The notes beneath the pieces are model-generated. The model did not search any database. It had not been told where the DNA came from and saw nothing but the letters and a program-made list of their open reading frames with translations. From Desulfoplanes formicivorans (GTDB lineage: Bacteria > Desulfobacterota > Desulfovibrionia > Desulfovibrionales > Desulfomicrobiaceae): a stretch of 64,000 nt of DNA. A program made the translations under genes and the position numbers. This document shows, piece by piece, positions 57,368 through 61,115 of the stretch. Positions within the stretch are counted from its first letter, which is position 1. Each line of letters begins with the position of its first letter. The stretch is taken from NCBI RefSeq assembly GCF_001748225.1, contig NZ_BDFE01000015.1:487437-551436 (forward strand), written 5' to 3'.

Positions 57368-58054
57368 ATGATTGTACCTGTTGGTACATTGGTGAATGCT
57401 TCGGCCATAGCCTTGGGTAGCGTGGTGGGACTGGTCCTCCGGGGGCGTTTCCCCGAGCGCATCAGGATTGTTTCCTTCCAGGGGGTGGGCTTGTGTGTCC
57501 TGGTCATTGGCATGCAAATGGCCTTTGACATGAAGAATGCCCTGATGGTGATCATTGCCGTGCTTTTGGGCGGGATCCTTGGGGAACTGCTTCGGCTGGA
57601 AGAATTGTTCGAGCGGCTGGCCCTTTGTCTTAAGGGGATGATTCGGTCCAAGAACCCCCTGTTCACGGACGGATTCATTTCGGCTTCCCTGATTTTTTGT
57701 ATCGGAGCCATGGCTATTGTGGGTTCGTTTGACGAGGGTATCCGTGGAGATCATTCAGTGCTGTTTACCAAGTCTGTTCTCGATGGGTTCACCTCGGTGG
57801 TCCTGGCCACAACCTACGGTGTTGGCGTGCTTTTTTCCGCAGTGTCCGTTTTGCTGTATCAAGGGGTACTGACGCTGTTTGCCACCTCGTGCCAATCCCT
57901 GTTTTCCCCGGATATTATTGCCCAACTCACGGCAACAGGCGGGGTCCTCATCTTAGGTATCGGAATCAACATACTGGAAATCAAGCAAATTCGCATTTCC
58001 AGCATGTTGCCCTCTCTGTTCATTATCGTCCTTTTATCCATGTGGTCCGTGTAA
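57368..58054 (+). CDS. DUF554 membrane protein
   Basis: A 228-residue membrane protein with about seven helices and the DUF554 pattern: GTLVNASAIALGSVVGLVLRG at the N-terminus and ISASLIFCIGAMAIVGSFDEGI in the middle. Its function is unknown; related proteins are annotated as possible transporters. ATG follows GGGAGAAGGAC. The 171-bp gap to the next gene holds only a weak imperfect hairpin. Confidence 0.9.
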   Translation: MIVPVGTLVNASAIALGSVVGLVLRGRFPERIRIVSFQGVGLCVLVIGMQMAFDMKNALMVIIAVLLGGILGELLRLEELFERLALCLKGMIRSKNPLFTDGFISASLIFCIGAMAIVGSFDEGIRGDHSVLFTKSVLDGFTSVVLATTYGVGVLFSAVSVLLYQGVLTLFATSCQSLFSPDIIAQLTATGGVLILGIGINILEIKQIRISSMLPSLFIIVLLSMWSV

Positions 58055-58225: not shown

Positions 58226-59629
58226 ATGAAAAAAAGAGAATCCCTTAATCAAATCGTACGGTACTTTGTCGACAATGGTGGTGGTTTCCTGATCGTGAGC
58301 CAGGACGACGTGTTTTTGCGGATGTTCAAAGGTTTCATGAAGGTTTTGCGACTGGCTGACACAAGCATGCACCATGATCCCTTGGGCCGGCATTATATCA
58401 GGGAAATCCGCAGGATGCTTGATCGTTTCAACCGGGTTATCGTCTTTATCGAAGCCACTCTCGAAGGGCGCAACAATACGCAGTACTTCCGGCATATCAA
58501 GGATATTCTGGATGATCGGGTGACCATCATCTGCCTGTGCAACGAAAGCGGGCGCGATACTCTCAGTCTGTTTCGGGAACTGGGTGCCGACAATACCATG
58601 GTCAAGCCCGTATCCATCGATACCATCGTCAAGAAGATCGCATTTTCAATTAAGCCAAATAATTTCAGAGCGTTAGTGGCTAAATCAAAAAAAGCCATTG
58701 CTCGCGGCAATTTTCGGACCGCTCGGGTCATTGCCCAGGAGATCCTCAAGGCCAATCCCGAAAGCACCATTGCCTATATCCTTTTGGGCGATATTCACCG
58801 CCGTAACAAGGAGTTTGATCTGGCGGAACAATGCTATCGCAAGGCTTCGCAAAACGCCCGGATGCACTTGCAGCCTCTGGAACGGCTCGTGGATTTGTAT
58901 GGTGAACTCGGTCGTTTGACAGAACAGCTTAGTATATTGAAATTAATGGATAAGATTTCTCCACTCAATTTTGAACGCAAAATAGCCCTTGGCGATGTCT
59001 ATGCCAAACTCGGAAAGGCCGGGCAGTGTGTTGCCTGTTACGAGGAGGCTCTTCAATTGGTCGGTATGCAGGCCAGGGAGATGATCAGCTATTCCAGAAT
59101 GCAAGTGGGCACCAAGCTCAAGGGCGTAGATGCTCAACGCAGTCTCGCTTACATGAAGGAGGCCCTTGAGCTTAAGGCCGATGATTTGCGTGCCAGTGAT
59201 CTTTGGATGTTCACCGAAATCGGTGGCGTGTTGCGCAAGAGGGGACAATGGAAGGATGCCGTCACATACTATAAGAGGGCCATGGAGATTGTTCCTGACG
59301 ATTGGGGACTGGCGTATAATCTTGCCATGGCCTATTTTCAGGGTGAGCAGTATCAGAAGGCTCGGGAGTATATTGAAGCGGCCCTGGAGCATTATCCGGA
59401 GCTTCTCAATCTTGATGCTGATATCCCTTATAATATCTGTATGATATATTATAAGCTCGGGCAATATTCAGAAGCTTCCCAATACGCGAAGATTGCCTGT
59501 ATCAATGATCATGGTCACGTCCCTGCCAGGCGACTTCTTAATGACCTCAAGGATCATTGCGTCAGGGAATCCGGTGCCGATACCACGGCTTGCAGAATGT
59601 ATGAAGACGTGCCGGCATTTCGTCCTTAA
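58226..59629 (+). CDS. Receiver-like domain / TPR protein, copy 1
   Basis: 467 residues. Residues ~18-135 align with a response-regulator receiver fold: acidic pair D27-D28 after strand 1, the strand-3 end VFIEATLEG, GADNTMVKPVS with Lys127 near strand 5. The phospho-acceptor Asp is replaced by Glu76, a phosphomimic, so the domain is probably locked in one state or acts by other means. From ~150 to the end there are TPR repeats (ANPESTIAYILLGDIHRR, NLAMAYFQGEQYQKARE). No output DNA-binding or enzyme domain. A second copy follows 36 bp later. Possible scaffold or signalling adaptor (inference). Confidence 0.78.
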   Translation: MKKRESLNQIVRYFVDNGGGFLIVSQDDVFLRMFKGFMKVLRLADTSMHHDPLGRHYIREIRRMLDRFNRVIVFIEATLEGRNNTQYFRHIKDILDDRVTIICLCNESGRDTLSLFRELGADNTMVKPVSIDTIVKKIAFSIKPNNFRALVAKSKKAIARGNFRTARVIAQEILKANPESTIAYILLGDIHRRNKEFDLAEQCYRKASQNARMHLQPLERLVDLYGELGRLTEQLSILKLMDKISPLNFERKIALGDVYAKLGKAGQCVACYEEALQLVGMQAREMISYSRMQVGTKLKGVDAQRSLAYMKEALELKADDLRASDLWMFTEIGGVLRKRGQWKDAVTYYKRAMEIVPDDWGLAYNLAMAYFQGEQYQKAREYIEAALEHYPELLNLDADIPYNICMIYYKLGQYSEASQYAKIACINDHGHVPARRLLNDLKDHCVRESGADTTACRMYEDVPAFRP

Positions 59630-59665
59630 AGGCGTTAACACAAGAATAAGAAGGAGTTGTATTTG

Positions 59666-61006
59666 TTGGGTAAGCGGGAAGTTCTGGATCAAACCATTCG
59701 CAGTTTTGTGGACCAGGCCGGTGGGTTTCTTCTTGTCAGCGGTGATACGACGTTTGTGCGTATTTTCAAAGGATTGATTAAGACCCTGGGCATGCCCAAG
59801 GACTGCATGTACTGCGAGACGCGTGCAACACATTATGTCCGCCGTATGCATACCATGCTCAAGCGCTTTCACAAGCTTGTCCTGCTGGTGGAGGCTTCCA
59901 TGGGCGAAGTAAACAACACGATGTATTTCCGGCAAATCAAGGAGGCTTTGGGGGAGAAGGTTTGGATAATCTGTCTGAGTTCGGAACTGAATCGTGATGT
60001 TCTTTGCCTGTTTCACGAGATGGGCGCCGACAACATCATTATCAAGCCTGTTTCTGTCAATTCCATTATCAAGAAAATCGTCTATACCATCAAACCCAAC
60101 AACCTGAGGGAATTGGTCGACAAGGCAGCAGAGGCTATTGCCAAAGGTGATACGGATGCGGCCCAATCACACATTGACCGCATTTTTGAGGTCAATCCCG
60201 AAAGCTCCATTGCCAATATCCTTTTGGGCGACATGGCCCGCAAGGCCAAGCGGTATGATGAGGCGGAAGCCAGGTATAAACAGGCTGCAAGCAAGGCCAG
60301 GATGTACCTTGAGCCCCTTGAGCGGCTGGCTGACCTGTATGCTGAAATCAATGATCGTGAGGCACGCATCGCAGTCCTTGAAAGACTGGACAGGTTGTCG
60401 CCCCTGAATCACCAGCGCAAGATTCTCATTGGGGACATCTGTGCGGACCTAGGAGATGCTGTGCGCGCCCGGAAGCATTTTGATGCAGCCGTGGCGGTTG
60501 TTCGAAGGCATGCACGGGACCAGATTGTCGCGACCCTCATGAACGTGGGGCAGAAGGTTATGGCCATTGATCCCGAGCTGGGTATCGGGTACATGAATGA
60601 GGCCATGACCTTGAAATCGGATGATTTTTCCATTCAGGATATGTGGATGTTTAATGAAATCGGCCGGCATCTTCGCAAACAGGGGAAATGGAAGCAGGCG
60701 ATCAACTATTATGTAAAAGCTTTGAAGGTCGATCCGGACAATGCCGGCTTGTTCTACAACCTGGCCATGGCCTATCTGCAGGGCAAAATGTATTTCAAGG
60801 CCCTTGAGCATGCCACCATGGCCTTGGACAAGAATCCTGATCTTCTGAACGTCGATATCAGCGTACCCTTCAACCTTGCCCGTATTTATTTTCATGTCAG
60901 GCAGATGGCCGAATCAGACAAGTATGTTCGCATGGTTTTGGACAGGGACCCGACCCACCAGGGTGCCCTCAAGCTGCTGGCCCTTTTGCAGGGCAAGGGT
61001 GGTTGA
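59666..61006 (+). CDS. Receiver-like domain / TPR protein, copy 2
   Basis: 446 residues, homologous to the preceding gene along its whole length. TTG at 59666 is chosen: it lies 9 bp after AAGGAG and makes the first 130 residues align without gaps, with Glu76 and Lys127 at the same numbers. TTGs at 59657 and 59663 are alternatives. The acidic pair is reduced to Asp27-Thr28. The C-terminal half carries TPR repeats (VNPESSIANILLGDMARK, NLAMAYLQGKMYFKALE). The copies have diverged considerably, so the duplication is not recent. Confidence 0.78.
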   Translation: MGKREVLDQTIRSFVDQAGGFLLVSGDTTFVRIFKGLIKTLGMPKDCMYCETRATHYVRRMHTMLKRFHKLVLLVEASMGEVNNTMYFRQIKEALGEKVWIICLSSELNRDVLCLFHEMGADNIIIKPVSVNSIIKKIVYTIKPNNLRELVDKAAEAIAKGDTDAAQSHIDRIFEVNPESSIANILLGDMARKAKRYDEAEARYKQAASKARMYLEPLERLADLYAEINDREARIAVLERLDRLSPLNHQRKILIGDICADLGDAVRARKHFDAAVAVVRRHARDQIVATLMNVGQKVMAIDPELGIGYMNEAMTLKSDDFSIQDMWMFNEIGRHLRKQGKWKQAINYYVKALKVDPDNAGLFYNLAMAYLQGKMYFKALEHATMALDKNPDLLNVDISVPFNLARIYFHVRQMAESDKYVRMVLDRDPTHQGALKLLALLQGKGG

Positions 61007-61067: not shown

Positions 61068-61115
61068 ATATGCAAACAGGCCGTTTCCCCTTGGGAAAAC
61101 GGCCTGTTTGCATAT
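61068..61115. terminator. Long hairpin between convergent genes
   Basis: ATATGCAAACAGGCCGTTT (61068-61086) is the exact reverse complement of 61097-61115, and CCC/GGG extends the stem around a tiny loop. It lies between the end of the TPR gene and the end of the cupin gene. There is no T run on either side, so it may act as a Rho-independent stop only weakly, or protect 3' ends. Confidence 0.55.

Follow-up and report, generated by a model that had tools for sequence, protein, structure and literature searches.

What is a receiver domain for when the aspartate that should take the phosphoryl group is replaced by glutamate? The question is raised by two neighbouring genes in a 64,000-nucleotide stretch of Desulfoplanes formicivorans DNA (contig NZ_BDFE01000015.1; hereafter, the window). 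An original prediction, made from the sequence, described them as adjacent homologous genes, each with a receiver-like N-terminal half and a TPR C-terminal half, and took them for phosphorylation-independent signalling scaffolds. Both open reading frames are present where they had been placed (58226–59629 and 59657–61006), and the locus is laid out as follows:

58226–59629, + strand: copy 1 (P0001), Glu-type receiver plus TPR protein, 467 aa, ATG start
59651–59656, + strand: Shine-Dalgarno-like AAGGAG ahead of copy 2, read from the sequence
59657–61006, + strand: copy 2 (P0002), Glu-type receiver plus TPR protein, 449 aa from the first TTG
61068–61115, no strand assigned: strong hairpin (fold −39.8 kcal/mol, z −6.5) separating copy 2 from the convergent cupin gene

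The intergenic gap between the copies is 27 bp. For copy 2, the TTG codons at 59663 or 59666 appear likelier starts than TTG 59657, since the AAGGAG stretch occupies 59651–59656. The hairpin at 61068–61115 probably ends the transcription unit; it is missing from the output of the consensus terminator scan. The promoter scan gave 4 sites against 3.8 expected by chance, i.e., no excess. According to Pfam annotation of the window, genes for a DUF554 protein and an AMIN/amidase protein lie upstream of the pair, and cupin, 4Fe-4S and DeoC-type genes lie downstream; as originally predicted, no kinase or output gene is found among these neighbours. The DUF554 protein gene (57368–58054) is on the same strand as the pair, 171 bp upstream.

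The two proteins are 45% identical overall, with 67/142 aligned residues identical across the receiver part and 131/298 across the TPR part. They form sister rows in the tree (support 100/99), so that the idea of a duplicated and diverged pair held; judged by these comparisons, it is a lineage-specific tandem duplication whose copies have since diverged. They are the only family members in the source genome, where the remaining matches are weak and mostly cover the TPR region; a scan of the genome contigs with P0001 gave two weak matches only, both over that region. The dsrA gene of the same genome scores above the curated cut-off, and the source organism is therefore probably a sulphite/sulphate reducer.

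The TPR half is readily recognized. Pfam finds TPR in both copies (E 2.7e-24 and 1.4e-21), and tandem TPR helical hairpins are confirmed in the pair by Pfam, an AlphaFold2 model and a fold search; the array runs almost to the C-terminus. Both Pfam and the model give a receiver followed by TPR without any other output domain. The receiver is much fainter at the profile level: P0002 scores 18.5 bits with PF00072, below the Pfam curated cut-off of 30.2, and P0001 has no receiver row among the best 25 Pfam matches listed. The receiver profile matches 62 places in the source genome, and at E ≤ 0.001 it lists only copy 2's place of the pair, under the cut-off. NCBIfam returned only TPR-type models, far under their cut-offs, and, for copy 2, a weak PhoB-type receiver match.

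The receiver part was resolved by structure modelling. AlphaFold2, run on copy 1 using 64 family rows, gave a whole-protein model with a mean pLDDT of 93.3, comprising an N-terminal helix (residues 2–16), strand-helix elements in receiver order (19–142) and TPR helices (145–448):

58280–58654, + strand: receiver fold of copy 1, residues 19–143, after the extra N-terminal helix (residues 2–16); model secondary structure and PDB matches
58658–59569, + strand: TPR array of copy 1, residues 145–448; Pfam, model and fold search

The N-terminal domain was also modelled by itself (pLDDT 92.5), because the whole-protein fold search was filled with TPR proteins. The best Foldseek match of this domain in the PDB was to CheY (E 1.2e-6), and VIA-align superposed it on DivK, CheY, KdpE and VbrR D51E with a Z of about 15 and an rmsd of 2.0–2.6 Å over 115–128 residues (DivK, Z 15.3; VbrR D51E, Z 15.1, 2.0 Å, 115 residues). 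A profile of the domain matches CheY-type PDB sequences at E 5.5e-9, and in this alignment the Glu falls opposite the acceptor Asp. As modelled, then, the N-terminal half is a CheY-type (βα)5 receiver fold with E76, not an Asp, at the acceptor site, and the superposition on CheY proposed as a check came out in favour of the prediction. Metal, ligand and activation state are not visible in AlphaFold2 models.

The pocket residues could thus be placed in both copies:

58301–58306, + strand: Q26 (DD1 lost) and D27 (DD2 kept) codons, copy 1; sequence and alignments
58451–58453, + strand: E76 codon, phospho-acceptor position, copy 1; sequence and alignments
58538–58540, + strand: C105 codon, conserved Thr/Ser position, copy 1; sequence and alignments
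58604–58606, + strand: K127 codon, conserved Lys, copy 1; sequence and alignments
59744–59746, + strand: DD2 Asp codon, copy 2 (D30 from TTG 59657); alignment
59891–59893, + strand: acceptor-site Glu codon, copy 2 (E79 from TTG 59657); sequence and alignment
59978–59980, + strand: Ser codon at the conserved Thr/Ser site, copy 2; alignment
60044–60046, + strand: conserved Lys codon, copy 2; alignment

Copy 2 residues are D30, E79, S108 and K130 when numbered from TTG 59657 and 27, 76, 105 and 127 when numbered from TTG 59666. The acceptor Asp is absent from both copies and replaced by Glu; E76 aligns with the acceptor Asp of canonical REC-TPR relatives. The model puts D27 after strand 1, E76 and C105 at the ends of strands 3 and 4, respectively, and K127 after strand 5, which agrees with the predicted Glu76 at the acceptor position and the retained Lys127. 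One residue of the acidic pair had been described as lost in copy 2. The first residue (DD1, position 26) is indeed Gly there, but copy 1 has lost it too (Gln), while DD2 (D27) is retained in both. The Thr/Ser site is lost in copy 1 (C105) and is Ser in copy 2; the Lys is retained.

The glutamate is not a peculiarity of the pair. Relatives of P0001 occur in 47 of 61 near genomes, and the family profile matches 234 of 348 genomes (E ≤ 1e-40) of the class sampled, which we take to be Desulfovibrionia. When genomes were drawn evenly across the phylum, the profile had matches at E ≤ 1e-30 in 31 of 395, of which 16 lie outside the class and match more weakly. Alignments of 68 rows, of 116 plus 18 outgroup rows and of 184 rows were made in turn. 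The 68-row alignment left out a duplicate locus (L031) and fragments without the N-terminus (L065, L071), the outgroup alignment left out L153 (protein <250 aa), and the trees left out four family fragments, two outgroup fragments and short pieces of the split G288 gene. In the family the acceptor site is Glu in 167 of 183 rows and Asp in the other 16, with no other residue, many rows coming from near relatives, so that these and the following counts are not independent. DD2 is Asp in 182/183 rows, the Lys is present in 182/183 and E118 in 183/183; D27, E118, K127, P128 and an acidic residue 76 are invariant or nearly so. Thr/Ser is found in 136/183 rows and an acidic DD1 in 122/183. With DD2 Asp and Lys each kept in 182/183 rows, the family pocket is under constraint, not decaying.

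The outgroup consists of REC-TPR response regulators from other classes of the phylum (L136–L154), which the family profile matches at E 1e-33 to 1e-64. They share the two-domain layout of the family and, unlike it, nearly all carry the Asp, Thr/Ser, Lys, D+4 Pro and Tyr: the acceptor is Asp in 15/17 (Glu in one, Asn in one), and Thr/Ser and Lys are each present in 18/18. The D+4 Pro occurs in 1/116 family rows versus 16/17 outgroup rows, the D+8 Gly in 2/116 versus 18/18, and a Gly/Ala at T+1 in 24/116 versus 16/18; at the site of CheY Tyr106 the family has Tyr in 0/116 (Phe in 39) and the outgroup in 15/18. The tree splits family from outgroup with support of 100, and the inferred ancestral state of the family is Glu, with 5 (112 rows) to 7 (178 rows) Asp/Glu changes inside it. 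Since the outgroup rows are canonical (Asp 15/17), the change from Asp to Glu at the acceptor site most likely took place on the branch leading to the class family, with occasional switches back.

Pairs such as that of the window recur, in line with the genus-wide search that had been suggested for them. Two family members lie <1 kb apart in 33 of the 36 genomes of another genus, and a third genus has a tandem pair in one genome (G227); the window pair, the G227 pair and that of the large genus arise separately in the tree (quick method, no bootstrap). Across the 33-pair genus the Thr site of the upstream copy is Val, Ala or Ile in 33/33, and the downstream copy carries Thr there in 28 pairs and Ala in the remaining 5, of which one is a broken gene. 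The window pair has Cys upstream and Ser downstream, the downstream copy of G227 has Val, and one further pair, in G303 (contig 281), keeps Ser in both copies. At L201 in genome G288, the upstream copy of the pair is intact and the downstream one is broken into two pieces; G291 and G297 have a single family member each, of the upstream type.

A link between Thr/Ser loss and tandem duplication looked suggestive initially and weakened as rows were added. Among 112 family rows, 4 of 6 Thr/Ser changes fell in clades holding 18.7% of the tree length (binomial P 0.013, in a test designed after the pattern had been seen), and with 178 rows it was 5 of 9 changes in 28.4% (P 0.080); five non-tandem rows have also lost the residue.

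A search for co-conserved kinases had likewise been suggested. A histidine kinase gene is directly adjacent, on the same strand, at 6 of 109 class loci and at 6 of 19 outgroup loci, counts that are uncorrected for shared ancestry. They come from a profile search, used in place of a regex search that missed kinases detected by Pfam. Glu-type members lie beside kinases at L082 and L088; at L082 (3449–7317) a hybrid histidine kinase gene and the Glu-type family gene overlap by 4 bp and make a candidate kinase-adaptor pair. In the outgroup there are two overlaps of the REC-TPR gene with its kinase neighbour, of 1 or 4 bp (L147, L143). At four outgroup loci (L141, L143, L144, L147), a canonical REC-TPR gene is accompanied by a short gene resembling a receiver and by a gene from a single shared cluster, which in L147 encodes a HEAT-repeat protein (Pfam); a PAS kinase follows in L143 and L147.

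Function could not be read from synteny, and this approach was set aside because neighbours vary by lineage: clpS-clpA-aat, the S10 ribosomal operon, rpsA-sppA, phosphoglucomutase and phoU were all encountered. These neighbours were mostly named by eye from N-terminal sequences, with ClpS, PhoU, S1, Peptidase_S49 and CheB confirmed by Pfam. At L045, L047, L053, L055, L060 and L103 (family f4), the family gene lies immediately 5′ of clpS, clpA-like and aat-like genes; the clpS neighbour is Pfam-confirmed in L053, and L043 also has clpA-aat look-alikes.

We infer, with a probability of roughly 0.6, that the window pair are phosphorylation-independent (aspartate-less) receiver-TPR adaptors belonging to a class-wide family; the scaffold role originally predicted thus stands as the most likely reading. 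It is favoured because of the relaxed phosphorylation features, the kinase-neighbour pattern and the precedent of VieB, described below. Relaxation of the D+4 Pro, D+8 Gly, small T+1 residue and CheY-Tyr106 site, combined with the kept acidic pocket, points to a receiver without Asp-phosphate cycling whose pocket is still used. The Asp would have changed to Glu in the ancestor of the class-wide family, with tandem duplication following later in the window lineage, and the receiver would no longer act as an Asp-phosphate switch. Its charged pocket (DD2 Asp, acceptor carboxylate, Lys) would most likely lock one state or bind a partner or ligand. The receiver may present or position the TPR superhelix, the TPR may dock a protein partner, and the duplicated copies may divide the adaptor work. 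Given what TPRs generally do, the array is likely a docking surface; a sensor kinase as its partner, on the model of VieB, is speculative. Against the adaptor reading, neighbourhoods differ among lineages and the Glu-type members at L082 and L088 sit beside kinases; in addition, with 16 Asp rows and about 5–7 Asp/Glu changes in the family, some members might still be phosphorylated.

Alternatively, the family may still be governed by phosphorylation, Glu members being phosphomimics that are constitutively "on", Asp members ordinary response regulators, and evolution switching between the two. The 16 Asp rows and the repeated Asp/Glu changes speak for it, as do kinase genes directly beside some members, one with a 4 bp overlap (L082), and the retained DD2 and Lys. 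As an account of the family we nevertheless consider it unlikely, given that Glu is dominant and inferred to be ancestral, that the Pro and Gly of the post-acceptor loop are lost family-wide, and that a D-to-E substitution alone often fails to activate receivers (PMC4395418). Still more doubtful is a ligand or metal sensor, in which a small molecule or ion would be held by DD2, Glu and Lys and the signal passed to the TPR part. Near-invariant pocket residues in place of an acceptor Asp, and the ligand binding known for some pseudo-receivers (PMC12632262), speak for it; the lack of a conserved operon context and a DD1 that is acidic in only 122/183 rows speak against it. That only the TPR part matters, the receiver being a structural remnant, is very improbable: the receiver's scores under the Pfam cut-off and several relaxed positions would suit decay, but D27, E118, K127, P128 and the acidic residue 76 are (near-)invariant over 183 rows, and the two copies resemble each other as much in the receiver half as in the TPR half.

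Returning to the aspartate-less adaptor reading, part of the picture is familiar. It is well known that aspartate-less receivers may carry Glu, and REC-TPR proteins are known too. Like the window pair, aspartate-less and pseudo-receivers keep the receiver fold but have another residue in place of the acceptor Asp (PMC4395418, PMC12632262); pseudo-receivers often have Glu at this site (PMC12632262, PMC4395418), and it is the commonest replacement in aspartate-less receivers (26%; PMC4395418). In that set DD1 is generally retained (65%) and DD2 is acidic in only 29% (PMC4395418); the pattern is reversed in our family, where DD2 is near-invariant and DD1 relaxed. The word TPR is absent from the main texts of PMC4395418 and PMC12632262, and no description of a Glu-type REC-TPR family was found in the literature searched. 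Within that literature, the class-wide family, its near-invariant DD2, the switches back to Asp and the recurrent tandem pairs were not found in our searches and appear to be new. A 2025 review calls the on/off switching of bacterial pseudo-receivers a mystery (PMC12632262). The family offers a natural series, with canonical Asp relatives in the phylum, dominant Glu across the class, switches to Asp and repeated tandem pairs, and makes the role of a receiver without phosphate testable through single-residue swaps.

The closest studied counterpart, compared by domain layout, is VieB of Vibrio cholerae, a REC-TPR auxiliary protein of the VieSAB system that binds and inhibits the kinase VieS (PMC4352251). 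Like the window pair, it has an N-terminal receiver followed by TPR and no DNA-binding output domain. Its engineered D62E variant, which has the acceptor state native to the window pair, binds VieS more tightly (KD 0.197 vs 0.467 µM) but inhibits it more weakly (PMC4352251). One may speculate, though we hold it improbable, that the class has naturally fixed such a D62E-like phosphomimic, yielding permanently "phosphorylated-like" REC-TPR adaptors docked on a partner, e.g., a sensor kinase; repeated duplication would then have produced a two-protein adaptor with one subunit lacking Thr/Ser, in which pocket asymmetry and not phosphate carries the signal. The differences from VieB are clear: it has an acceptor Asp, which regulates its inhibition of the kinase, and is encoded in an operon with its own kinase and regulator, whereas the window pair has a native Glu and no adjacent kinase. 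VieB also carries an additional C-terminal part of no known homology, whereas the TPR array of the window pair nearly reaches the C-terminus.
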